Assembly (NCBI GenBank): GCA_030655715.1
Contig: JAUSPR010000247.1
Coordinates: forward strand, 1 to 10,974
Length of the DNA stretch: 10,974 bases
From: Thermoplasmata archaeon
GTDB taxonomy: Archaea; Thermoplasmatota; Thermoplasmata; SG8-5
Reading direction: 5' to 3'
Positions 700 through 10,963 of this stretch are shown piece by piece; within the stretch, counting starts at the first letter, position 1, and every line of letters starts with the position of its first letter. The notes under the pieces were generated by a model, which saw nothing but the letters and a program-made list of their open reading frames with translations, was not told the DNA's origin and searched no databases. A program made the position numbers and the translations under genes.

Positions 700-1629
700 T
701 TAACTCAGTTTGTCCAAGGCCTGGAAAATTGCAGAAGTGTATTTGTCCAAGTTCTCGAGTGAGTTTCTGTCGCCCTTCCAGTTGGTAAACTCCGTAGCCA
801 GTTTGTTCTCCATAATCTGAATGGCCTTCAAAATCACCCTATACATAACTGGCTTGGATTCTCCAACTATGACAACTGCAGCGTAAACATGAGTACTATC
901 TTCCAAAATGATGGTATGCCCCTCATAGGTCAGCGAATGGACATGCTCGCCCTCTTTGAATGCTTTGGTCATCTGTTCCTTAATAGCCATGACCATTCTG
1001 GACATTAATTTTTTGTCAAGCTCTGTAGGGGATTTCTTGCTCTTGACAGATAGCAGAGTTCCATCCTTGTGAAGTAAGAAAATGGTTTCCGCAACAAACT
1101 TTGTAGCCTGCACTGGAGGTTCAACAGCATCCTCGAAGGCCTCCTCGAAAAATTTCTCCTTGATTTTCTTCTGTAATTTTTTAATCTCGTTCTCCACAAC
1201 ATCAAGGTCTGTCTCTTCGGTGAACAGGATATGAATTTTTTTTGCTTCTTCCTCGAAGCCAACGATGTTCAGGCTTGCGAGTTCGGCTTTCAGTTCTTTT
1301 AATCTAGGAGTGATCTTAAGAGAAGTTGCCAGGGACTCAAGGGATTCAACCTGAAGCGGGTCGTTTAACTTGTCAGAATGCTGGGAGAACATTTCATGCT
1401 TTTCATTGAAATTCAAATTCTCAAGTTGGTCCAAGACCTTCTCCAGCCTAGCTACTTTTTCGGAAAATTCTTTGAACGATTTATCAATGGCATCGGAATC
1501 TCCTGAACGCATAGTTTCTAAAATGGGGTCAACCAAATAACCAATGGCAACCCAGTTGTAGAGACTGGACGCATTATTGCTATCCGCATTTGAATCCTTT
1601 GAAATCGATGAACCTTTTTTCCTTGCCAT
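700..1629 (-). CDS. Coiled-coil protein with C-terminal roadblock/profilin-like domain
   Basis: A 309-residue soluble protein in three parts. Residues 1-25 are a Lys/Ser/Asn-rich tail. Residues 45-75 and 105-165 are charged heptad-like helices, probably coiled coils. Residues 178-285 form a compact alpha/beta domain starting AETIFLLHKDGTLLS, with a long amphipathic helix, the strands HSLTYEGHTIILED and THVYAAVVIVGE, and a closing helix ending FTNWKGD. Domains of this look, with a final W-x-GD, are in my recollection common in Thermoplasmata proteins of unknown function and resemble roadblock/profilin-type sensor folds. No membrane segment or catalytic motif is visible. It heads the V4R and roadblock genes, so a signalling or scaffold role is reasonable but inferred. 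The ATG at 1629 has a short leader with AGGGGA. A TATA-like stretch at 1667-1678 suggests its own promoter, separate from the helicase gene 64 nt upstream. Confidence 0.7.
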   Translation of the reverse strand: MARKKGSSISKDSNADSNNASSLYNWVAIGYLVDPILETMRSGDSDAIDKSFKEFSEKVARLEKVLDQLENLNFNEKHEMFSQHSDKLNDPLQVESLESLATSLKITPRLKELKAELASLNIVGFEEEAKKIHILFTEETDLDVVENEIKKLQKKIKEKFFEEAFEDAVEPPVQATKFVAETIFLLHKDGTLLSVKSKKSPTELDKKLMSRMVMAIKEQMTKAFKEGEHVHSLTYEGHTIILEDSTHVYAAVVIVGESKPVMYRVILKAIQIMENKLATEFTNWKGDRNSLENLDKYTSAIFQALDKLS

Positions 1630-3654: not shown

Positions 3655-3870
3655 GTAAACTACCAGCCCCTAAAGTGGTTGGCGTTTGTTGCCGGGGCTG
3701 GAAGTTTACGTGCGTAGGCCATGCACCTGAATTATCAAAGCCAAACAGCTTTGATTTCATGTGTTGAGATATGCACGGTGCATGGCGGTCTATCTTTTGA
3801 TTGTATTCGTGTAATTGGTCAATTCAACTCAGGCGTAAACGCCTGAGGATTCTTGACCATTATCACTAAA
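3655..3870 (+). ncRNA. Structured RNA element, copy 1 (unrecognised family)
   Basis: This is a noncoding element matching the one at 10763-10963. Hairpin 1 (3655-3709) pairs GTAAACT-A-CCAGCCCC with GGGGCTGG-A-AGTTTAC around one A/A mismatch. Hairpin 2 pairs GCCATGCACC (3718-3727) with GGTGCATGGC (3777-3786), ten of ten. Inside it, ATCAAAGC (3734-3741) pairs with GCTTTGAT (3748-3755). Hairpin 3 has an outer stem TGGTCAA/TTGACCA (3816-3822/3853-3859) and an inner stem CTCAGGCG/CGCCTGAG with a TAAA loop. It ends in TTATCACTAAA (3860-3870), identical in both copies. The two copies differ by compensated base changes, which argues for a functional RNA or single-stranded DNA fold. No long ORF runs through it. 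The plus strand is chosen because a TATA box lies 26 nt before it; the fold is largely symmetrical, so strand is uncertain. It could instead be a non-autonomous mobile element with hairpin ends. Confidence 0.75.
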
Positions 3871-3901
3871 GATTGCGGTATTAGGGCGAGAACATGTTTA
3901 A

Positions 3902-3997
3902 TCAACCATAGCCAGAGCCAGGATACAGAAAGCGTACGATGACGGCAGAATTACCAAGGAACAGTACGAAAATAACATGGAAAAATTCAAGGATTGA
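3902..3997 (+). pseudogene. SHOCT-like C-terminal fragment, no start codon
   Basis: The frame opens after a TAA at 3899-3901 and reads IARARIQKAYDDGRITKEQ, then a short helix ending EKFKD and TGA (3995-3997). The pattern aromatic-D/E-x-G-x-I-T-x-E-x-Y with a Lys-rich final helix is typical of SHOCT, a short domain found at protein C-termini. There is no ATG, GTG or TTG before the conserved part. An ATG at 3894 in another frame meets TAG after five codons; a single-base shift would join it to this frame. The fragment lies directly after the structured element, so the parent gene may have been broken by the element or lost. It is in the same frame as the acetyltransferase, 18 nt upstream of its ATG. 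Confidence 0.45.
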
Positions 3998-4015
3998 TAC
4001 TGCATTCCCTGTCAC

Positions 4016-4486
4016 ATGCCCGACTGGAAAATTCAAGTTGCCAATACTGCCGATTCGGAAGAAATATCCCAACTCTACAGAACAGTCTGGACCCCATTTT
4101 TGAATGATTTCCCCAAAGAACTGATGGATAATCGCATGCCTTTGGCCAGGGAGATTAAGGCCAGCATGGAAAAAAAGACATATTTTATTGTGCGAGATAA
4201 AGCAAAAATAATCGGTGTGGCGCGTGCCACGATAGAACATGGCGCCTGCCTTCTGGACAGGATGGTAGTTCATCCCGAATTCCGGGGAAAGGGTATCGGA
4301 AAGGCCCTGACACTGCACATAATAGACTATGCCAGAAACAATAATGCCAAAAAAATATGGTTGGACACCAGCCCCAAACTAACTGAAGCTATCGCCTTGT
4401 ATGAGAGCCTGGGCTTCAGGGAGTGCGGGTTATTTAGAAAGCATTATTGGGGTACTGACATTAAATTCTATGAGATGCTAATATAA
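4016..4486 (+). CDS. GNAT-family N-acetyltransferase
   Basis: A 156-residue single-domain GNAT protein, normal length for the family. Motif A is at 81-98, DRMVVHPEFRGKGIGKAL, with the acetyl-CoA pyrophosphate loop R90-G-K-G-I-G95. Motif B is ALYESLGFRECG at 127-138, followed by the FYEM strand. It transfers an acetyl group from acetyl-CoA to an amine; the layout is RimI-like, but the acceptor cannot be predicted. The N-terminal part (ADSEEISQLYRTVW) fits the first strand and helix region. The start is the ATG at 4016; no clear Shine-Dalgarno is visible and an in-frame TGA 18 nt upstream limits extension. It lies downstream of the structured element and the SHOCT fragment and converges with the membrane-protein gene, so it is probably a single-gene unit. 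No functional partner is evident. Confidence 0.88.
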   Translation: MPDWKIQVANTADSEEISQLYRTVWTPFLNDFPKELMDNRMPLAREIKASMEKKTYFIVRDKAKIIGVARATIEHGACLLDRMVVHPEFRGKGIGKALTLHIIDYARNNNAKKIWLDTSPKLTEAIALYESLGFRECGLFRKHYWGTDIKFYEMLI

Positions 4487-4487
4487 T

Positions 4488-4549
4488 TAATACAATATAT
4501 AATTAGTTAAAAAGCAGAAATTTCAACATGCCCCGCTTGAATTGTATTA
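4488..4549 (+). terminator. Inverted repeat plus T-rich run after the acetyltransferase gene
   Basis: TAATACAAT (4488-4496) pairs perfectly with ATTGTATTA (4541-4549), starting one base after the acetyltransferase stop and followed by a T-rich run. It encloses GTTAAAAAGC, which on the minus strand is a T5 run that could end transcripts from the opposing membrane-protein gene. A terminator role is inferred from position. Confidence 0.4.
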
Positions 4550-4573
4550 TTTTGTTAGCTGGAGGGCGGGGAT

Positions 4574-4644
4574 GTGAGGCCTCACAAGCGCTCACCAGGC
4601 CTCTCTATTTTAGAATATCTTGCATGGATGACGATTTTTCATCC
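4574..4644. repeat. GC-rich palindrome and small hairpins between convergent genes
   Basis: GTGAGGCCTCAC (4574-4585) is a perfect 12-bp palindrome. Its GAGGCCT (4576-4582) can also pair with AGGCCTC (4597-4603). Further on, GGATGA (4626-4631) pairs with TCATCC (4639-4644). The stretch lies between the 3' ends of two convergent genes and has no ORF. It may be part of a terminator or a small RNA; I do not recognise it. Confidence 0.35.
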
Positions 4645-4691
4645 TTTGTAGGAATTTAAATTCTATGGATTAATATTATAATGTACAAATA

Positions 4692-5525
4692 TTAATTAAA
4701 TATTAGCAACGTCGAGATAAATATCGCTCCAAACAATATCATCAGAACGCCGGAAATGCGTTCTGCCTGTAACAGTCTTTTCTGGCGCGTCTCCTTCTTA
4801 GCCAGGTTGGTCCCGAGCCCTGCGAATCCCAGGCTGGGAAGCGAAGCCCCCACGGAGAATAAAAAGAAAGCAGAACCGCCGAGCAATGCGCCCGAGAGCG
4901 GTGATGTCATGCCTGAACCCGAGATACCAACAAAAATCGTTTCCAGGCTGAGAACTGTCTCGCCGATGCAGGCAATGCTGACAATGCCGCCCCAGAGCAA
5001 TAATCCTGACCTGCTCTTGGGCGTGGCAAATCGCATTTTCGAGAACAATGGATGTTTTGGCTTGCACTCGCTTTCCGGTGATTTGCCTTCGGCCAGGTTA
5101 TTCAATTTCTCGTCTGCATTGGCGAATACATAAAGACCGTAGACGAACATCAGAGAACCGATAATCACATAGCCAGCTAACCAGGTATTTGAGCCAGCTG
5201 TTGCGAAATCAAATTCCGAGCCAATGAGAAAACCGCCAGCCCCGATAATAAAACCCAGAATGGTGAGGAACACTATTCTCGGCGCATTGAACCATAGCGC
5301 TATTTTCACGCCTTTTTTCCAGTCACCGCCGTTCTCGATTAATGTGGGAACCAGGGAAGGCATGCACAGTGCCAGACATGAACTTGCGCCCCGGCGGAGG
5401 CCCATGAGGAAGCCATAGACAAGGACAATGATTGCGGCCATCATTGATAGAGCATCCGTAATGAAGTATAACAGGGTTTCGCCGGGGAATTTGGATGTAT
5501 GGAGTGACCCCCTTTTCATGGACAT
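4692..5525 (-). CDS. CcdA/DsbD/SafE-type polytopic membrane protein
   Basis: A 277-residue membrane protein with about six hydrophobic segments (roughly 25-43, 73-103 possibly as two, 117-135, 176-201, 211-233, 257-276). The first ends in GLRRGASSCLALCMPSLVP, with C50, C54 and prolines at 56 and 60. The fourth contains SIACIGETVLSLE with C186. A Cys-Pro segment in the first helix and a Cys-Ile-Gly segment in a later one resemble the inverted-repeat core of CcdA/DsbD, which passes reducing power across the membrane, and of the related SafE/UreH group. There is no fused thioredoxin or periplasmic domain and no thioredoxin gene nearby. The loop at about 138-172 is hydrophilic. Two starts are possible, Met1 at 5525 and Met3 at 5519; a TATA-like CTATAATG about 20 nt upstream slightly favours Met3 as a leaderless start. 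The family call is moderate; electron or metal/sulphur-compound transport cannot be told apart here. Confidence 0.55.
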   Translation of the reverse strand: MSMKRGSLHTSKFPGETLLYFITDALSMMAAIIVLVYGFLMGLRRGASSCLALCMPSLVPTLIENGGDWKKGVKIALWFNAPRIVFLTILGFIIGAGGFLIGSEFDFATAGSNTWLAGYVIIGSLMFVYGLYVFANADEKLNNLAEGKSPESECKPKHPLFSKMRFATPKSRSGLLLWGGIVSIACIGETVLSLETIFVGISGSGMTSPLSGALLGGSAFFLFSVGASLPSLGFAGLGTNLAKKETRQKRLLQAERISGVLMILFGAIFISTLLIFN

Positions 5526-5546
5526 TTAGAATAGTGACAACATTAT

Positions 5547-5619
5547 AGGAGGTGAGATATGACAAAGAACCTTAAAATGAGACTGAGGTTGATATTGCTC
5601 GAAGTCGATTTTTAAGGTT
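5547..5619 (+). other. Micro-ORF with full Shine-Dalgarno inside a long inverted repeat
   Basis: AGGAGGTGA (5547-5555) matches the archaeal anti-Shine-Dalgarno almost completely. Three bases later an ATG (5559) opens MTKNLKMRLRLILLEVDF, ending TAA at 5613-5615. AACCTTAAAA (5568-5577) pairs perfectly with TTTTAAGGTT (5610-5619); with one G/T pair it extends to 13 bp. The stem would enclose most of the micro-ORF. It lies about 80 nt before the 354-residue gene, so a leader peptide or attenuator is conceivable. The 3-nt spacing is short for efficient initiation, and the peptide has no known relative I can name. Confidence 0.3.
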
Positions 5620-5665
5620 TTTCTGATAGCTGACATCTGTAAGACATAATCATTGACTGACAAAG

Positions 5666-5675
5666 AATAAATATC
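5666..5675 (+). promoter_or_regulatory. TATA box for the 354-residue gene
   Basis: AATAAATATC is centred about 28 nt before the ATG at 5698. This predicts transcription starting at or next to the start codon, a leaderless mRNA, and fits the absence of a Shine-Dalgarno before that ATG. Confidence 0.55.
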
Positions 5676-5697
5676 ACAAACCATTCTGTAGTTCCAT

Positions 5698-6762
5698 ATG
5701 GTGAGCATAGTAGGGATTGACAGTAGAATTTTCATCCGTGATACGATTAAAAAGAATGGGATGCCGGGTCACTTTGAATCTGTCGTGGGGATAGCTGTTA
5801 AAGTTAGAGATTACTTGGAATTTAATCAAAAGTACATCCAGGTTATGTCAGATGCGTTTAAAAGTGTAAGTCTGACAACCGATTATCAAAGCTATTGCGT
5901 GAATGATCTGAAAGACCTTCCTGAAAAAGATGATATACTGGCTTATTTTGTTGAACATATAAGTCGCCACATCGAAAAGGTTCATGTTTTCTATACTTTA
6001 TTTTCAAAAGATCGATTGAAAGAGGTTAAGGTTTATGGACGAATGGCACAAAAGAAAAAGATAAAACTTGCTGCGCCTACGAGGACTTATGAAGAACTCA
6101 TCAACGAGCATCTTATCCATTGTTTTCCTGCGATTTGTGCATGGCGTTTAACTGAGTATTTATCACCCGGAACTATTGAATTTCATTTAGATTCGTATGG
6201 TGGGAATATTTGCGAGGCGCAGGAGGAACTGGATGATAGTGATTTTACGATTTTTGTATATCCCAGTGGTGATTGCTGTAACCCTGTGATTTCCACAGCG
6301 GACTTATTGTTAGATGTTATGGATACCAGACTCGAAAAGAGAAGAAAATTATTGATTTTTGATAACATTAGGCCAGCCATTTCAGAGTTTGGAGATAACT
6401 TGTTGGTTTACCCGATTTTGAACAAACACCTACCTTCAATCACTCCATTAGAACAAAAGCCGATTGATACTATTTCAAAGCTCAAGCATCCTGTTTTCTG
6501 GGTTTTCAAAGGCGATTCGCTTATTAATTCTGGCATAATGAAAAGGTCAAAGACATATCGAAATCTGGTTGATTATGCAGCTACCCAGTTCAGTGTTGTT
6601 AAGATGTTTGACAGGAGCAAGGACATTGATTATGTCCAGATGGATGATTTCGGAGTTTATCTTAATACTCAGGGTAAGGAGATTATAGAGTCTTACAGAA
6701 AGCTCGGAAAACCCTTCAAACCTTTTGATCTAGACGTGATGGTTCCCAAAGAGAATAAGTAA
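5698..6762 (+). CDS. Unrecognised 354-residue protein, possible RNase H-like/DUF3800-like fold
   Basis: I do not recognise this protein with confidence. It starts MVSIVGIDSR, a short strand ending in D8, then a second strand after GHFESVVGIAVKV. A central strand HIEKVHVFYTLFS (91-103) is followed by a Lys-rich stretch. TIEFHLDSYGG (159-169) carries D165 at a strand end, and NPVISTADLLLDVMDTRL (195-212) puts D202 and D206 in a helix. D at the first strand, D after a later strand and a final ST-AD-L helix recall RNase H-fold nucleases such as DUF3800. The C-terminal third (about 215-354) has no motif I can place. There is no membrane segment or signal peptide. The gene is visibly AT-richer than its neighbours, stands alone with its own promoter and is flanked by repeat-rich DNA, all suggesting acquisition. 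The nuclease idea is inference. Confidence 0.6.
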   Translation: MVSIVGIDSRIFIRDTIKKNGMPGHFESVVGIAVKVRDYLEFNQKYIQVMSDAFKSVSLTTDYQSYCVNDLKDLPEKDDILAYFVEHISRHIEKVHVFYTLFSKDRLKEVKVYGRMAQKKKIKLAAPTRTYEELINEHLIHCFPAICAWRLTEYLSPGTIEFHLDSYGGNICEAQEELDDSDFTIFVYPSGDCCNPVISTADLLLDVMDTRLEKRRKLLIFDNIRPAISEFGDNLLVYPILNKHLPSITPLEQKPIDTISKLKHPVFWVFKGDSLINSGIMKRSKTYRNLVDYAATQFSVVKMFDRSKDIDYVQMDDFGVYLNTQGKEIIESYRKLGKPFKPFDLDVMVPKENK

Positions 6763-6771
6763 ACCAGAAAA

Positions 6772-6780
6772 TATATATAC
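6772..6780 (+). promoter_or_regulatory. TATA-like run before a 23-codon ORF
   Basis: An alternating AT run (ATATATATA) directly follows the 354-residue gene and lies about 30 nt before an ATG at 6808. It could drive a very short leaderless transcript or simply be AT-rich spacer. Confidence 0.3.
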
Positions 6781-6807
6781 ACCCGTTGATATAGTAGATA
6801 TCACGAC

Positions 6808-6879
6808 ATGGCCGATAGGTTATGTCTACTGTGTAGAATAATCGTTAACCCCACTATACTTTTTTATTTTAACTTTTAA
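6808..6879 (+). CDS. Possible 23-residue peptide with CxxC
   Basis: The ATG at 6808 opens MADRLCLLCRIIVNPTILF and ends YFNF, TAA at 6877-6879. It has a C-L-L-C pair and a hydrophobic end. A TATA-like run about 30 nt upstream would give a leaderless message. Nothing else supports it, and a 23-codon ORF is easily chance; its last third overlaps the T-rich terminator region. Confidence 0.2.
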   Translation: MADRLCLLCRIIVNPTILFYFNF

Positions 6880-6898
6880 GTTTATCTTTTATCCATTC
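6858..6898 (+). terminator. T-rich terminator region after the 354-residue gene
   Basis: Successive T runs (CTTTTTTATTTT, then ACTTTTAAG and ATCTTTTATCC) lie about 100 nt after the stop. Archaeal RNA polymerase stops at such U-rich tracts without needing a hairpin, so this is the likely end of the 354-residue transcript. Confidence 0.5.
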
Positions 6899-6929
6899 AT
6901 GCCTTGTTTTTAATTTCAAATATCACCAA

Positions 6930-7015
6930 AGCGCTCCGAGGACTGCGAGCGGGGGGACGGGCGCGAGCCACCGCAGGAGCATGAGGGTGGGGGATGCGTT
7001 CAGCATGGCGGCGCG
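6930..7015. other. GC-rich patch in AT-rich intergenic DNA
   Basis: An abrupt GC-rich block of about 85 bases sits between AT-rich flanks. It contains G runs, a small stem CGCTC/GAGCG (6932-6936/6947-6951) and repeated GCGAGC-type words. No start or Shine-Dalgarno marks it as coding. It ends just before a TATA box at 7016. It may be the end of a repeat or mobile-element remnant; I recall similar GC-rich intergenic blocks in methanogen genomes but cannot confirm identity. Confidence 0.4.
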
Positions 7016-7023
7016 TTTATACA
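7016..7023 (+). promoter_or_regulatory. TATA box before the small membrane-protein ORF
   Basis: TTTATACA lies 28 nt before the ATG at 7052, spacing that fits a leaderless or very short-leader archaeal transcript. Confidence 0.45.
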
Positions 7024-7051
7024 GTAACAATAAACACAGAAGCAAAAGAAC

Positions 7052-7231
7052 ATGGAAAACACGTTGGCGAATGATTATTCATAGCAGTTTTCAACCGTAG
7101 AAGAACCAGAAATAATTCAACCGCCAGTGTCTGATAATGATACCATTTGGATAGGAATTATTATTCTATTGATTACAATAATAATGTTGATGTTGTTCTA
7201 TCAGTTTAACAAAGAAAAAGAACTGGAATAA
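7052..7231 (+). pseudogene. Small single-pass membrane protein ORF with in-frame TAG at codon 11
   Basis: The ATG at 7052 reads MENTLANDYS, then TAG (7082-7084), then continues in frame to TAA at 7229-7231 for 59 codons in all. After the TAG come an acidic, Pro-rich stretch (EEPEIIQPPVSDND), a hydrophobic helix WIGIIILLITIIMLMLFYQF (33-52) and a charged end NKEKELE. This is the layout of a one-helix membrane protein with a charged tail. The open frame on both sides of the TAG and the TATA box 28 nt upstream suggest a real gene. Either the TAG is a fresh nonsense mutation or it is read through, for example as pyrrolysine; no other gene seen whole in this window stops at TAG. A restart at GTG (7127) would still give the membrane helix. 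No family is recognised. Confidence 0.4.
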
Positions 7232-7329
7232 GCTATTCCCAGATGTATTCTTTACCCTTCCTCTATTCTTTGGCCATAAATATTTGCCAGCAAAAGTTGA
7301 ATGCAACTTCACCTTTTCCAAATTCCGAA

Positions 7330-7575
7330 CAAAAACGTTTGGAACGCACGTTCCAATGCCGAATAAAACCAAATGCCGTTCACACCCCTTCATCGTTCCG
7401 AATCCCCTCTTCTTGTCACACGTAGTTCCAAACGTCCAACACACCCCCTCGTTCCAAATGTCCAACAGGACTTTGGATACCGACCAAAAACGTTTGGAAC
7501 AAATGTTCCAATGCCGGCTAAATTCGGATGCCGAATTAATTTGGATGCCATATAAATTTGGATACCGGATAAAAG
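7330..7575. repeat. Degenerate tandem and inverted repeats built on GTTCCAA / TTGGAAC
   Basis: Two 38-nt copies (7330-7367 and 7485-7522, 155 nt apart) share CAAAAACGTTTGGAAC, four variable bases, then GTTCCAATGCCG. Each contains a perfect 7-bp hairpin TTGGAAC-N4-GTTCCAA. Between them GTTCCAAAYGTCCAACA occurs twice (7425-7441, 7451-7467). After them come AATTCGG-ATG-CCGAATT and two near-copies of AATTTGGATRCC. The 155-nt period is not a multiple of three and the overlapping frames share no consistent reading, so this is not protein-coding. No CRISPR-like fixed spacing is present. Confidence 0.7.
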
Positions 7576-7690
7576 CATTCGACGATGGCATGGCTATGAT
7601 GAATAGCTAAATCGAATGCCATACGGCTCGCAACAATCTATGAGCGATAGGTGAATACGTAGTTAAATCTGGCAAACTGAAGTATTCGCC
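7575..7690. repeat. Chain of three hairpins, possible structured RNA
   Basis: GCATTCGA (7575-7582) pairs with TCGAATGC (7612-7619) around an inner GCTAT/ATAGC stem (7593-7597/7603-7607). GCTC (7626-7629) can pair with GAGC (7642-7645). GGTGAATAC (7650-7658) pairs with GTATTCGCC (7682-7690) with one G/T pair, which would suit RNA. No ORF of note crosses it. A TATATA run lies just to the right at about 7708-7713. Confidence 0.4.
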
Positions 7691-7730
7691 ATGAGTAAGC
7701 ATTTTGTATATATGCTCTCTCAACAGTCTT

Positions 7731-7769
7731 CCCGGTAATCAGCAATCTGGAAGCAATAAGATTACCGGG
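7731..7769. terminator. 10-bp inverted repeat abutting the ArgS stop codon
   Basis: CCCGGTAATC (7731-7740) pairs perfectly with GATTACCGGG (7760-7769) around a 19-nt loop, ending two bases before the ArgS stop triplet (7774-7772 on the minus strand). On the minus strand it directly follows the coding region, so it is probably a 3' stem protecting or ending the aRF1-ArgS transcript. No U tract follows on that strand, so a processing or stability role fits better than intrinsic termination. Confidence 0.45.
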
Positions 7770-7771
7770 TT

Positions 7772-9481
7772 TCACAGCTCCTCGGGCGCCACAATCCCCA
7801 GCGTATCCAGGGTATTGGACAGAACAAATTTGGTAGCAATAACCAATGCAAGCCTGGAGTCCTTCAACTCAGGCTCCGCAATTAGCACAGGACAATCCCG
7901 GTAGAACTGATTGAATGTCGAGGCAAGCTCGAATGCGTAAGCCGCCACAGGATGGCAGGCCATGCTGGTGCCGCATTCCTTTAACATGGATGGGAATCTG
8001 GCAAGGATTTTTATCAACAGGATTTCCGATGGATGTGTCAGTTTGGCAGTATCATATTTTTTCAGGGGAGAAGCCTTCCTGAGAATGCTGCTGGCCCGGG
8101 CATGGGAGTACTGGACAAACGGCCCGCTATTGCCATCGAAACTAAGGGCTTCTTCCCATTTGAAGACTATCTGTTTCTCAGCCTGGATGCGGATGATGTT
8201 GTAGCGTATCGCGCCGGTTCCTACTGCATCCGCGATACCGCGTTTCAGTTCTTCAGTGAGCTCGGGTCTGCGCAGATCCACCTCTTTCCTGGCCATTGTC
8301 ACGGCCTCTTCGATTAGATCGTCAATGTAAACAACTCTGCCGCGGCGTGTGGACATTTTTCCTTCGGGCAATGATACGAATGAATAAAATATCGGTTCTA
8401 TTTGCTTTTCCTGGCCTAAAAGATTTACACCGATTCCGACAATCTTGGCCTTCAATCGATGGTCTTCCCCCAGTATGTCTATTGCCCTGTCATAATTCAC
8501 GAATTTGTCAAGGTGATAAGCCATATCCCGGGTGCTGTAAAGGCTTGAGCCATCACCACGGGTCAGGAAGAACTTGTTTTCTTGACCAGTTATGTCGAAT
8601 TCTTCCAGTGAAAGATAAAGTGCGCCGTTATCCTCTGCAGTGCAATCCATTGCCCTTAACTTCTCCACGACGCGTTCAACCGAACCATCGAAAACGTACC
8701 TGGATTCCCAAGCAAAAGAATCAAAATGAATGTCCAAACGTCTGAGCGAGCGGGTCATGCCCTCAAGAACCTTTTTGCAGTTCGCCTGGACACGTTCGGC
8801 GATGTTCTTGTCCTTTGCCTCGTATTTGGAAATCATGGCATTGATTTCTGCCAGAACTTCAGGTTTCTCCATCTGTTTGCTGGCTTCCTGATAATACCAG
8901 ACCATGGCATGGTCCGCTTTCTCGGGAATTTCGCCTTCCTGGGTGAGGTTTTCCACGCCCCAGGTCAAGGTTACCTGCTGTTTCCCCATGTCGTCCACAT
9001 AAAATTCTGTAGTGACCTCATGGCCGCATCTTCTGAGTATCCGCGCAAGCGTGTCGCCGATTATGGGGTTACGTGCGCGGCCGACATGCAACGGCCCGTT
9101 CGGATTCGCGCTCGTGTGCTCCAGGTTGATTTTTATGCCAGTTGGTTCGGAATTGCCATATTCTTCGCGAAACTCCATGATGGATTCTACCGTAATTCTG
9201 GACAGCTCGCTCGGCTCTATTCGGAAATTCACATATGGACCGCTGGCCTCAATCGAGGCAAAGAGCTTGTCCTTGGGAATTGACTGGGAAATGATTTTTG
9301 CGATCTCAACCGGAGACTTGCGCAATTCCTTTGCCAGGAGGAAACATGGAAAGGCGAAGTCCCCCATGTCCTCGGGCGGGACCTCGATTGATAGTCTGGT
9401 ATGCGTGCCCAACTTTGAAAGTGCCTGGTTGACCAGGTCAAAGGCCCGGTTACTGAACATCTCCAAAGGGTTAAAATCCAT
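7772..9481 (-). CDS. argS: Arginyl-tRNA synthetase
   Basis: A 569-residue class I synthetase that charges tRNA-Arg with arginine in the cytoplasm. An N-terminal Add-1-like domain covers about 1-90. The catalytic core begins INLEHTSANPNGPLHVGR, with the HIGH signature as HVGR at 132-135, preceded by the HTSANPNGP motif characteristic of ArgS. EGKMSTRRG at 373-381 is the KMSKS equivalent. The core includes FFLTRGDGSSLYSTRDMAY (304-322) and YVDDMG (161-166). The DALR anticodon-binding helices carry SGPFVQYSHARASS (452-465) and end with FNQFYRDCPVL and LDTLGIVAPEEL, as in archaeal ArgS. The length is normal. The ATG at 9481 follows the aRF1 stop TGA (9485-9483) with a single base between, so the two genes are co-transcribed and probably translationally coupled. 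No odd residues were seen. Confidence 0.97.
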   Translation of the reverse strand: MDFNPLEMFSNRAFDLVNQALSKLGTHTRLSIEVPPEDMGDFAFPCFLLAKELRKSPVEIAKIISQSIPKDKLFASIEASGPYVNFRIEPSELSRITVESIMEFREEYGNSEPTGIKINLEHTSANPNGPLHVGRARNPIIGDTLARILRRCGHEVTTEFYVDDMGKQQVTLTWGVENLTQEGEIPEKADHAMVWYYQEASKQMEKPEVLAEINAMISKYEAKDKNIAERVQANCKKVLEGMTRSLRRLDIHFDSFAWESRYVFDGSVERVVEKLRAMDCTAEDNGALYLSLEEFDITGQENKFFLTRGDGSSLYSTRDMAYHLDKFVNYDRAIDILGEDHRLKAKIVGIGVNLLGQEKQIEPIFYSFVSLPEGKMSTRRGRVVYIDDLIEEAVTMARKEVDLRRPELTEELKRGIADAVGTGAIRYNIIRIQAEKQIVFKWEEALSFDGNSGPFVQYSHARASSILRKASPLKKYDTAKLTHPSEILLIKILARFPSMLKECGTSMACHPVAAYAFELASTFNQFYRDCPVLIAEPELKDSRLALVIATKFVLSNTLDTLGIVAPEEL

Positions 9482-9482
9482 T

Positions 9483-10709
9483 TCAGGCCCCCGTCCTGTA
9501 TCTCAGGATTGCAGCCACGCCGTTAAACGCTTTCATCAGCATTTCTCCCTCTTCCGAAACATTTGATATCATCTCGACATTTGTGCCGTAAGCGTCCGCT
9601 AAATCGAAAAGGTCATTGACTATGTCCAGTTCCTTGAGGATATCCACTTCCGCGGTGCATTCGGGGCATTTCACATGCACCAATGACTTGAGAATCATTT
9701 CACCCTTTTTTCCACATTTGGGGCAGGAATAATCGATATGGGTCTTTTCCATTCCCTCGGAAATCAACAGAGTGGCCACTGCCCCTCTTTCCAAGGCATC
9801 TCTTACCTGGTCTTCCCCATAAGCAGCCAGGCCATCATCCGGCTTCCGTAGTTCATCAAGGAACTTTGTCATCAGTTTTTTCTCCTGCATCAGGCTGAGG
9901 TCTTCCAGTGCCGGAGCGGCATTCTGCATCAACTCCCTGAGACCGGATTCATCAGTATAGCAAACCTCGAAGGCCCCGATGACTATCTTCATAAGCTCAT
10001 GGTGAAGATAATTATCCTCCATGAAGTTGACCTTTGTAGAACCTGGACCTCCAATGATAACTCCCTTGAGTCCCTCAATCGCCATGAATCTATCGTTGGC
10101 AATCTCTGCCACATTCTTGAAATATTCGTGAACGGAAATTTCAATAAGCCGCTCAAATCTCTGCGCGGACTGACCCCCGGCCCTGTGCTTGCCCATGACC
10201 AGGGATTGAAAGTTCTTGATGACCTCTATGCGTTTACCGTTAAGGAGACCAATTGTGGCCTCATTTCTGTCAATTACTATGAGACCGTAAATCTCGCTCT
10301 CCGTGAGCATGGCCTCCAGCTGTTCAAGATAGAAATGCGAGTCGCAACGATACATGAAAGTAGTTACCGGCTCGGGCGGCTGAAGAATGAAGGAAACCGG
10401 CACTGTCTGGTCACCTGTCCCGGATTTGTGGCCAACAAGGAATACCAAACCGTTATCTGGAACATTCTTGAAGGTCTTCAATTTACCTGAAATCGAATCA
10501 ATTGCCCACATGACATTTTTCTTTGTGGTCCTGGACTTGATATTGGATGATTGCGCGTACTCATTCCGTAGATAATTGGTAACGTCCGAAACGCGCTTGC
10601 TCGGGGGAACATAAAGTGAGATAAGCTCCGTGGCCCGTCCTTTTATGCTCTGAATTTCCCTGAGCTGTTTCTTGAATTCGTATTTCAAGAGGTCCTTTGA
10701 TTTTGCCAT
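9483..10709 (-). CDS. prf1: Archaeal peptide chain release factor subunit 1 (aRF1)
   Basis: Class I release factor that reads stop codons in the ribosomal A site and triggers peptide release, working with aEF1A. With the chosen start it has 408 residues. Domain 1 carries NIKS at 56-59 (SSNIKSRTTKKN) and YRCDSHF (120-126) of the stop-codon pocket. Domain 2 carries GGQ at 178-180 in HRAGGQSAQRFERL, the catalytic loop. Domain 3 has a CPKC...CPEC pair (C329, C332, C348, C351), a zinc site typical of archaeal aRF1. The frame is open 11 codons further to an ATG at 10742, but the ATG at 10709 gives MAKSKDLLKYEFKKQL, the usual family start, with GGATGAT six bases upstream, a weak Shine-Dalgarno. It is followed 1 nt later by argS. 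Confidence 0.95.
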   Translation of the reverse strand: MAKSKDLLKYEFKKQLREIQSIKGRATELISLYVPPSKRVSDVTNYLRNEYAQSSNIKSRTTKKNVMWAIDSISGKLKTFKNVPDNGLVFLVGHKSGTGDQTVPVSFILQPPEPVTTFMYRCDSHFYLEQLEAMLTESEIYGLIVIDRNEATIGLLNGKRIEVIKNFQSLVMGKHRAGGQSAQRFERLIEISVHEYFKNVAEIANDRFMAIEGLKGVIIGGPGSTKVNFMEDNYLHHELMKIVIGAFEVCYTDESGLRELMQNAAPALEDLSLMQEKKLMTKFLDELRKPDDGLAAYGEDQVRDALERGAVATLLISEGMEKTHIDYSCPKCGKKGEMILKSLVHVKCPECTAEVDILKELDIVNDLFDLADAYGTNVEMISNVSEEGEMLMKAFNGVAAILRYRTGA

Positions 10710-10747
10710 TTGAATATCATCCTGCATCCAACGAAAAGGCATATGCC

Positions 10748-10757
10748 TTTATGAAAA
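10748..10757 (-). promoter_or_regulatory. Possible TATA box for the aRF1-argS operon
   Basis: The minus strand reads TTTTCATAAA here, about 40 nt before the ATG at 10709; transcription starting near 10727 would include the GGATGAT ribosome-binding sequence. A perfect palindrome GGCATATGCC (10737-10746) sits next to it and could be an operator or an alternative AT core. Confidence 0.35.
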
Positions 10758-10762
10758 TACCG

Positions 10763-10963
10763 GTAAACTACCAGCCCCTAAAGGGACTGGCGTTTGTTGC
10801 CGGGGCTGGAAGTTTACCATATGGCAGTTGCATACCTGACTTATCGAAGCTAATTGGCTTCGATTTTTGATGCTCAAATATTCACGGTATGCAACGGTGA
10901 ACCGACGACAGGCCGTTCATCCCTAGCTTAAAAGCCAGAGAGTTCCCGGCCTTTATCACTAAA
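10763..10963 (+). ncRNA. Structured RNA element, copy 2 (unrecognised family)
   Basis: This is the second copy of the element at 3655-3870. Hairpin 1 (10763-10817) matches it at 52 of 55 bases. Hairpin 2 pairs GTTGCATACC (10827-10836) with GGTATGCAAC (10886-10895); the sequence differs from copy 1 at six of ten pairs, all compensated. The inner hairpin is ATCGAAGC/GCTTCGAT (10843-10850/10857-10864), one compensated change. The spacer after the inner hairpin is 21 nt in both copies. Hairpin 3 has an outer stem AGGCCG/CGGCCT (10910-10915/10947-10952) and an imperfect inner stem with the same TAAA loop. It ends in TTATCACTAAA (10953-10963). Flanking sequence after this motif is unrelated to that after copy 1. 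Copy 2 begins 53 nt upstream of the aRF1 start on the opposite strand. Strand is assigned by analogy to copy 1. Confidence 0.75.

Follow-up and report, generated by a model that had tools for sequence, protein, structure and literature searches.

The stretch of DNA analyzed here (the window; 10,974 bases) corresponds to contig C206 of a 1.73-Mb genome, assigned to a Thermoplasmata archaeon, which is 73% complete and distributed over 287 contigs. The window holds two copies of a hairpin-rich repeat, 201 to 216 nt in length with the adjoining target site included, at positions 3655 to 3870 (copy A) and 10763 to 10963 (copy B). This repeat is very probably a non-autonomous, gene-free miniature derivative of an IS200/IS605 insertion sequence (IS), i.e., a miniature inverted-repeat transposable element (MITE) of the type termed palindrome-associated transposable element (PATE), composed of three hairpins, at the left end (LE), in the center (HP2), and at the right end (RE).

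Layout of the two repeat copies

The features of both copies, listed below, were delineated using a set of 74 full-length copies, from which duplicate loci (L001 to L008, L144, and L155) were excluded, and an alignment, A1, of 60 of these 74, the remaining 14 having been omitted by choice (one each from L011, L012, L030, L036, L043, L058, L062, L076, L086, L100, L108, L149, L160, and L163). The autonomous element is a longer, gene-bearing form described in the following section.

3655..3865, minus strand (the direction in which the transposase is read): copy A of the putative mobile repeat; limits taken from nested copies and the autonomous element, with 107 core matches in the genome
3866..3870, minus strand: target pentamer, TTTAG in the minus-strand reading, 5′ of the left end of copy A; from the target tally over 73 copies and from joined flanks
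3655..3709, minus strand: RE hairpin of copy A, whose minus strand ends in GTTTAC; the last 33 nt are 90.9% identical to the autonomous element; helix 1 of A1
3718..3786, minus strand: HP2 of copy A, with an inner stem at 3734-3755; helices 2 and 3 of A1, with two-sided change in 10 of 18 pairs and no autonomous-element match there
3805..3811, minus strand: ATTCGTG, guide-like segment of copy A, with the potential to pair with the left tip and target; column 219 is a Watson-Crick match to target column 280 in 54 of 58 copies
3816..3859, minus strand: LE hairpin of copy A; helices 5 and 6 of A1, aligned with the autonomous-element LE, copy A itself giving no LE match in the BLAST search of the IS against the copies
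10763..10958, minus strand: copy B of the putative mobile repeat; from direct sequence reading, the full-length copy set, and the IS comparison
10959..10963, minus strand: target pentamer, TTTAG in the minus-strand reading, 5′ of the left end of copy B; from the target tally
10763..10817, minus strand: RE hairpin of copy B; the last 33 nt are identical to the RE of the L164 autonomous element (E 5e-12)
10827..10895, minus strand: HP2 of copy B, with an inner stem at 10843-10864; from A1 and pair counts
10910..10952, minus strand: LE hairpin of copy B; 84.6% identical to the autonomous-element LE over 39 nt (E 4e-7) and 95.7% over 23 nt

The initial annotation, in which the two copies were interpreted as a previously unrecognized structured RNA, described their shared and compensated sequences correctly. 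The common 55-nt hairpin (3655-3709 and 10763-10817) differs at 3 of 55 positions, while the next stem, GCCATGCACC/GGTGCATGGC (3718-3727/3777-3786) in copy A and GTTGCATACC/GGTATGCAAC (10827-10836/10886-10895) in copy B, is changed at 6 of its 10 pairs, each change being compensated. The inner hairpin displays a single compensated change (ATCAAAGC/GCTTTGAT against ATCGAAGC/GCTTCGAT), and the outer-stem change of the 3′ hairpin is likewise present, as is the common TTATCACTAAA end. The latter is, however, the left end of the element plus its target site rather than the 3′ end of an RNA, as nested copies assign the final five bases, CTAAA, to the target and not to the element. In terms of fold energy, both window copies surpass all 200 dinucleotide shuffles (z -6.6 and -4.8). 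The repeat is too short to encode a transposase (full-length copies span 201 to 265 nt), and the open reading frames (ORFs) of at least 50 aa which overlap the window copies (51 and 57 aa) begin outside them.

Copy number, the autonomous element, and insertion sites

The RE core, CTACCAGCCCCTAAAG, with at most 2 changes permitted, occurs 107 times in the 1.73-Mb genome (53 forward and 54 reverse), compared to 2 occurrences of the reversed control; the two annotated copies, both of which are real, are thus members of a family of about a hundred. Within the order, DNA searches detected the repeat in 11 of 13 genomes and, in a class-wide sample for which two candidates were scored per genome, in 11 of 300 genomes, all 11 of which belong to the order. 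Among the matches listed, the carriers include Methanomassiliicoccales and other Thermoplasmata metagenome-assembled genomes, and the matches listed beyond Thermoplasmata are most likely chance 16-mers. Where a full-length copy in the window's own genome is flanked by a gene on both sides (24 of 32 copies), the strands of these neighbors are mixed [(-,-) 8, (+,-) 7, (+,+) 5, (-,+) 4], and an ORF of 110 codons or more overlaps 3 of the 32 copies. One relative carries six mini-copies of 115 to 117 nt (L017, L019, L025, L042, L057, and L099), in which HP2 is absent and the RE hairpin directly adjoins the LE hairpin.

Longer forms of the element that contain a gene were identified at L164 (the same place as L021) and L165, in genomes G011 (the query element's own record) and G006 (85%), respectively. 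Each is 707 bp in length with the same layout, that of L164 being, in the minus-strand reading of the repeat, TTTAG, TCTAAAAGGGAGAGAACCCCCTGGCTTTTAAGCCAGGGATGAATCGACC ... tnpA ... CTTTAGGGGCTGGTAGTTTAC, and both are inserted 3′ of TTTAG and possess the same LE and RE as the repeat. The 158-aa product is an IS200-type TnpA (PF01797, 100 bits; NF033573, 106.6 bits against a cut-off of 55), with HVH (HUH) at residues 61 to 63 and Tyr127, and its relatives in the PDB include the TnpA of IS608 and other solved Y1 transposases. When this IS was compared by BLAST with the 74 full-length copies, 120 matches were obtained in 73 of them, located exclusively at the ends of the IS: 73 at the RE (from base 660), 47 at the LE (to base 59), and none between. 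The best LE match has an E value of 3.5e-12 (L131), and the RE of copy B is identical at 33 of 33 positions. In a third carrier, G300, TnpA is 50% identical and the 21-nt RE is identical. The repeat is probably moved by a transposase carried in a relative. Eight distant Y1 loci (31 to 35% identity; L166 to L172 and L174) were also inspected for the repeat RE, which was present at L172 only, in the form of an ordinary repeat copy, while the two pattern matches returned from viral contigs were both unrelated to TnpA.

The left tip was placed in 73 of the 74 copies by means of the pattern CA[ACG]TAAA with at most one change, toward which the resulting tally leans. The five bases 5′ of the tip, in the orientation of TnpA, are TTTAG in 32 copies, TTTAC in 9, TTTAT in 8, TTTAA in 3, and other one-base variants in 21, such that TTTAG, TTTAC, or TTTAT immediately precedes the element in 49 of 73 placed copies (minus-strand reading). 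The five bases beyond the RE present no strong consensus, their first base seldom being C (3 of 73). Among 68 joined flanks, five span another copy of the repeat, all five without a gap, and four of these joins are firm, with identities of 100% over 70, 94.7% over 94, 93.0% over 43, and 85.1% over 74 positions. In these four cases, insertion duplicates no target and deletes nothing. The firm nested insertions occurred at a CTAAA or GTAAA of the host copy, situated in the HP1 loop (L109:1287), in the LE hairpin loop (L113 and L110), or at the edge of HP2 (L122), and the tandem arrangement of L045:6824-7031 with the copy after it is consistent with insertion at the repeat's own initial GTAAA. 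At L109:2186-2399 the junction appears clean and the sequence has diverged, a case which does not settle the question of target duplication.

Several structural variants were observed among the copies. A long insert, possibly another small element, occupies the HP1 loop at L110 (2446-2652) and L143 (2208-2452), and in L110 it includes a strong GCCCTGCC..GGCAGGG hairpin. Copies from JAUWNU01 (L011, L012, L014, L030, and L039) harbor a longer and different HP1, with an arm ending in TGACTGTATGTTTAC, which suggests that RE hairpins differ among host species. In JASLWR01 (ETNP2_MAG_1; L054, L056, L067, L077, L079, and L081), several copies have the same right end close to contig ends, as is expected of a multi-copy IS that breaks assembly; the best TnpA of this genome shares 50% identity with that of L021.

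The folded strand and the guide-like segment

Covariation was scored by pair counts on the 60 copies of A1 against a 53-pair structure, with slid partners and shuffles as controls. In total, 89.9% of cells are paired, a value favored by the derivation of the structure from the same sequences, compared to 25 to 41% for slid partners. Two-sided change is found in 24 of the 53 pairs, and the covariation score is 0.172 versus 0.079 in shuffles, none of 500 of which reach it; the conserved fold with compensated changes that was reported from two copies, and the covariation of its stem pairs, thus hold in the larger alignment. The number of further pair types (47, versus 50.6 in shuffles) is not in excess, and RNAalifold alone returned 19 pairs, 10 of them with two-sided changes. 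Both ends possess subterminal hairpins, represented by helices 1, 5, and 6 of A1, in which 86 to 92% of cells are paired.

The strand on which this fold is maintained is indicated by the mismatches. Excluding the guide helix, the stem cells read on the plus strand comprise 2496 Watson-Crick pairs, 132 A·C, 16 G·T, and 87 other mismatches, whereas on the opposite strand the same mismatches read as 132 G·T and 16 A·C. Because the mismatches are mostly A·C on the plus strand, the conserved fold is that of the minus strand, which is the strand reading tnpA. The bias is also apparent when the window's own genome is considered by itself (58 A·C, 9 G·T) and in a parsimony count on a FastTree tree (59 versus 13 inferred events; binomial p 4e-8), for which the repeat tree is rough and the events are partly non-independent. 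Pair 16-73 supplies 37 of the 132 A·C cells, and its exclusion leaves 95 versus 16, while slid partners give A·C/G·T ratios of 1.0 to 2.1. The bias is carried by HP2 (27 to 2 and 7 to 2) and by the LE hairpin (42 to 4 and 12 to 2). Cytosine deamination of exposed single strands was considered as its sole cause and rejected, since the bias also exists in A-T-derived mismatches (33 versus 3). A slight bias in the same direction was noted in unpaired columns (238 versus 197; p 0.055) and in all paired-column changes (91 versus 76; p 0.28). The TnpA enzymes of IS200/IS605 elements are known to act on one strand only, namely, the strand that reads tnpA. Transposition of such elements is single stranded and hairpin based, as set out in the relevant portions of PMC5934647 and PMC6006769. 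The paired changes in the repeat look like those of DNA hairpins kept for that transposase.

Base pairing is possible between columns 215 to 221 of A1 and the left tip and target (columns 278 to 284), with 75.2% of cells paired and with pair 218-281 failing in 40 copies. The variable base of the target (column 280) forms a Watson-Crick match with column 219 in 54 of the 58 copies which have letters at both columns (G-C 35, C-G 14, T-A 4, A-T 1), and no other column with 40 or more letters matches the target base as often. On the far side of the LE hairpin (13 scored columns between 266 and 279), the best column attains 36 of 60, with one pair type. Part of this signal is explained by subfamily linkage, columns 244 and 261 also reaching 82 to 83%. 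The co-variation of the target with column 219 suggests natural guide switching, as judged from the aligned copies. IS608, ISDra2, and IS605 are known to possess an additional hairpin adjacent to that of the LE, according to the pertinent part of PMC5934647, and HP2 may, by analogy, hold the single strand in its active shape. It is tentatively proposed, as a possibility that falls short of a probable one, that the family is a case of natural re-targeting, in which sub-lineages switched between TTTAG, TTTAC, and TTTAT by changing a guide on the opposite side of the hairpin from that of IS608 and in which HP2 is a gained module keeping the folded strand movable.

Proposed mechanism, alternatives, and known systems

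Following the known mechanism of this IS family, an IS200-type TnpA, supplied in trans either now or formerly, would bind the folded single minus strand and cut it 3′ of TTTA(G/C/T) and 3′ of TTTAC, whereupon a single-stranded circle would be excised and inserted 3′ of a new target that pairs with the LE guide segment.

The interpretation of the initial annotation, i.e., a new structured non-coding or cis-regulatory RNA transcribed from the plus strand, appears extremely unlikely. It accords with the strong fold, the covariation, and the outcome of the Rfam search, which produced no credible match on either strand of the window (a single match of 18.6 bits against a cut-off of 41, at 1227-1261, outside both copies), in agreement with the claim that no known RNA family is represented. 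Nevertheless, an RNA of this strand should tolerate G·U, while the mismatches are A·C (132 versus 16); in addition, gene neighbors follow no consistent arrangement and are mixed in strand, copies nest within copies, and the ends equal those of an IS. The proposed family was misjudged as to strand, molecule, and kind, being a dispersed repeat with IS200/IS605 ends and, where visible, no target duplication. A functional RNA of the minus strand, either an omega-RNA-like guide for a TnpB-type nuclease (the guide being the DNA after GTTTAC) or another domesticated RNA useful to the host, is also very unlikely, even though the wobble bias fits it equally well and HP2 has been kept without an IS counterpart, six mini-copies of a relative doing without it. 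The TnpB zinc ribbon (PF07282) was above the cut-off neither in the window's own genome nor in any of 13 genomes of the order (weak, sub-threshold matches in 3 of 13), compared to 6 of 14 control genomes, leaving an omega-RNA with no partner, and TnpA alone explains both the tracking of the target base and the nested insertions.

The cause of the covariation itself may be questioned, in that compensated changes could arise without selection through template switching from one hairpin arm to the other (quasi-palindrome correction) during replication of the element or in its single-stranded state. Hairpins of this size are suitable substrates for template switching, and six adjacent pairs of HP2 switch in 7 to 10 copies each, as a single tract event would bring about. 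Such a process, which is compatible with a miniature IS200/IS605 element, does not alone yield the excess of A·C over G·T, present in both G-C-derived (62 versus 13) and A-T-derived (33 versus 3) mismatches with pair 16-73 excluded, nor does it explain the match between target and guide, and we consider it unlikely. A palindromic MITE of an ordinary DDE-type IS with terminal inverted repeats was raised by the long-loop forms of HP1, a hairpin which resembles a fused inverted repeat, and was dropped once the tnpA-bearing copies had been read: neither end is an inverted repeat of the other, the four firm joins show no target duplication, and the IS which shares the ends encodes a Y1 TnpA. Practically no credence is thus given to this alternative.

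A number of observations weigh against the assignment to a TnpA-mobilized miniature element, in whole or in part. The search for a Y1 transposase in the window's own genome, at 73% completeness over 287 contigs, yielded none, and G010, with 43 repeat matches, encodes only a 33%-identical TnpA. With regard to insertion, the fifth join (L156:1502-1715; 92% over 25) rests on 10 bases past the junction and is flanked by HP1 on the left and the LE hairpin on the right, with no simple empty site; the join at L109:3550-3764 has one surplus base; and at L044:5181-5389 and L112:449-662 a host repeat is present on one side only. Copy B and L111:946-1167 are without a guide-like segment, and the complement tracking the target base sits, in the orientation of TnpA, on the 3′ side of the LE hairpin, while the guide of IS608 is located 5′ of the hairpin foot in the section of PMC5934647 concerned. 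Furthermore, HP2 covaries yet has no counterpart in the IS, HP1 displays no visible bias once pair 16-73 is excluded (7 A·C, 6 G·T), the 87 further stem cells are other mismatches, and the wobble bias cannot separate single-stranded DNA from RNA of the same strand.

Among systems with comparable features, REPINs and REP-RAYT systems are high-copy hairpin repeats tied to a Y1 enzyme, and HEARO/omega-RNAs are structured and IS linked. The present repeat differs from the former in its IS-type ends and target, its partner TnpA falling below the cut-off of 80 for the REP model (29.6 bits) and scoring 106.6 bits with the IS200 model, and from the latter, as from Rfam families in general, in the Rfam and TnpB results given above. 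PATEs of Haloquadratum walsbyi are described, in the portion of PMC3119063 drawn upon here, as non-coding and IS605-related, with near-terminal palindromes and no target duplication. To the extent covered by that portion, PATEs and the repeat alike are too short to code, lack terminal inverted repeats, bear an IS605-type relation, produce no target duplication, and are often struck by other mobile elements, while the repeat is set apart by its Thermoplasmata-type lineage, its third, central covarying hairpin, its insertion into the CTAAA/GTAAA of its own copies, and a partner IS which, as found here, carries tnpA only. With IS608 and ISDra2, as portrayed in the corresponding parts of PMC5934647 and PMC6006769, it shares subterminal hairpins, a fixed short target 5′ of the LE, pairing between guide and cleavage site, an HUH-Tyr TnpA, and a second hairpin by the LE hairpin; it differs from them in the target, TTTA(G/C/T) instead of TTAC, in a complement positioned 3′ rather than 5′ of the LE hairpin, and in the absence of a gene. 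The repeat is assigned to the PATE kind, the placing of its guide being the one point that may represent a new variant. A limited literature search retrieved no paper on miniature inverted-repeat elements in Methanomassiliicoccales.

These results add a high-copy IS200-derived repeat to this archaeal order and show that dense compensated change between repeat copies, a usual sign of a structured RNA, can stem from the hairpins of mobile DNA, in which case the count of A·C versus G·T mismatches tells which strand folds. The rule relating guide to target is rendered testable by the abundance of copies (approximately one hundred), their nested insertions, and the natural variation of the target.

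Elsewhere in the window, three predicted proteins of 277 to 354 aa (5698-6762, plus strand; 4692-5525, minus strand; and 700-1629, minus strand) have no Pfam or NCBIfam match at E 0.001. The stretch from 7280 to 7640 harbors a second, unrelated repeat family with units resembling GTTTGGAAC..GTTCCAATGCCG, including 57-nt direct repeats at 7322 and 7477 which are 81% identical, and it has 58 matches in the window's own genome, itself counted.

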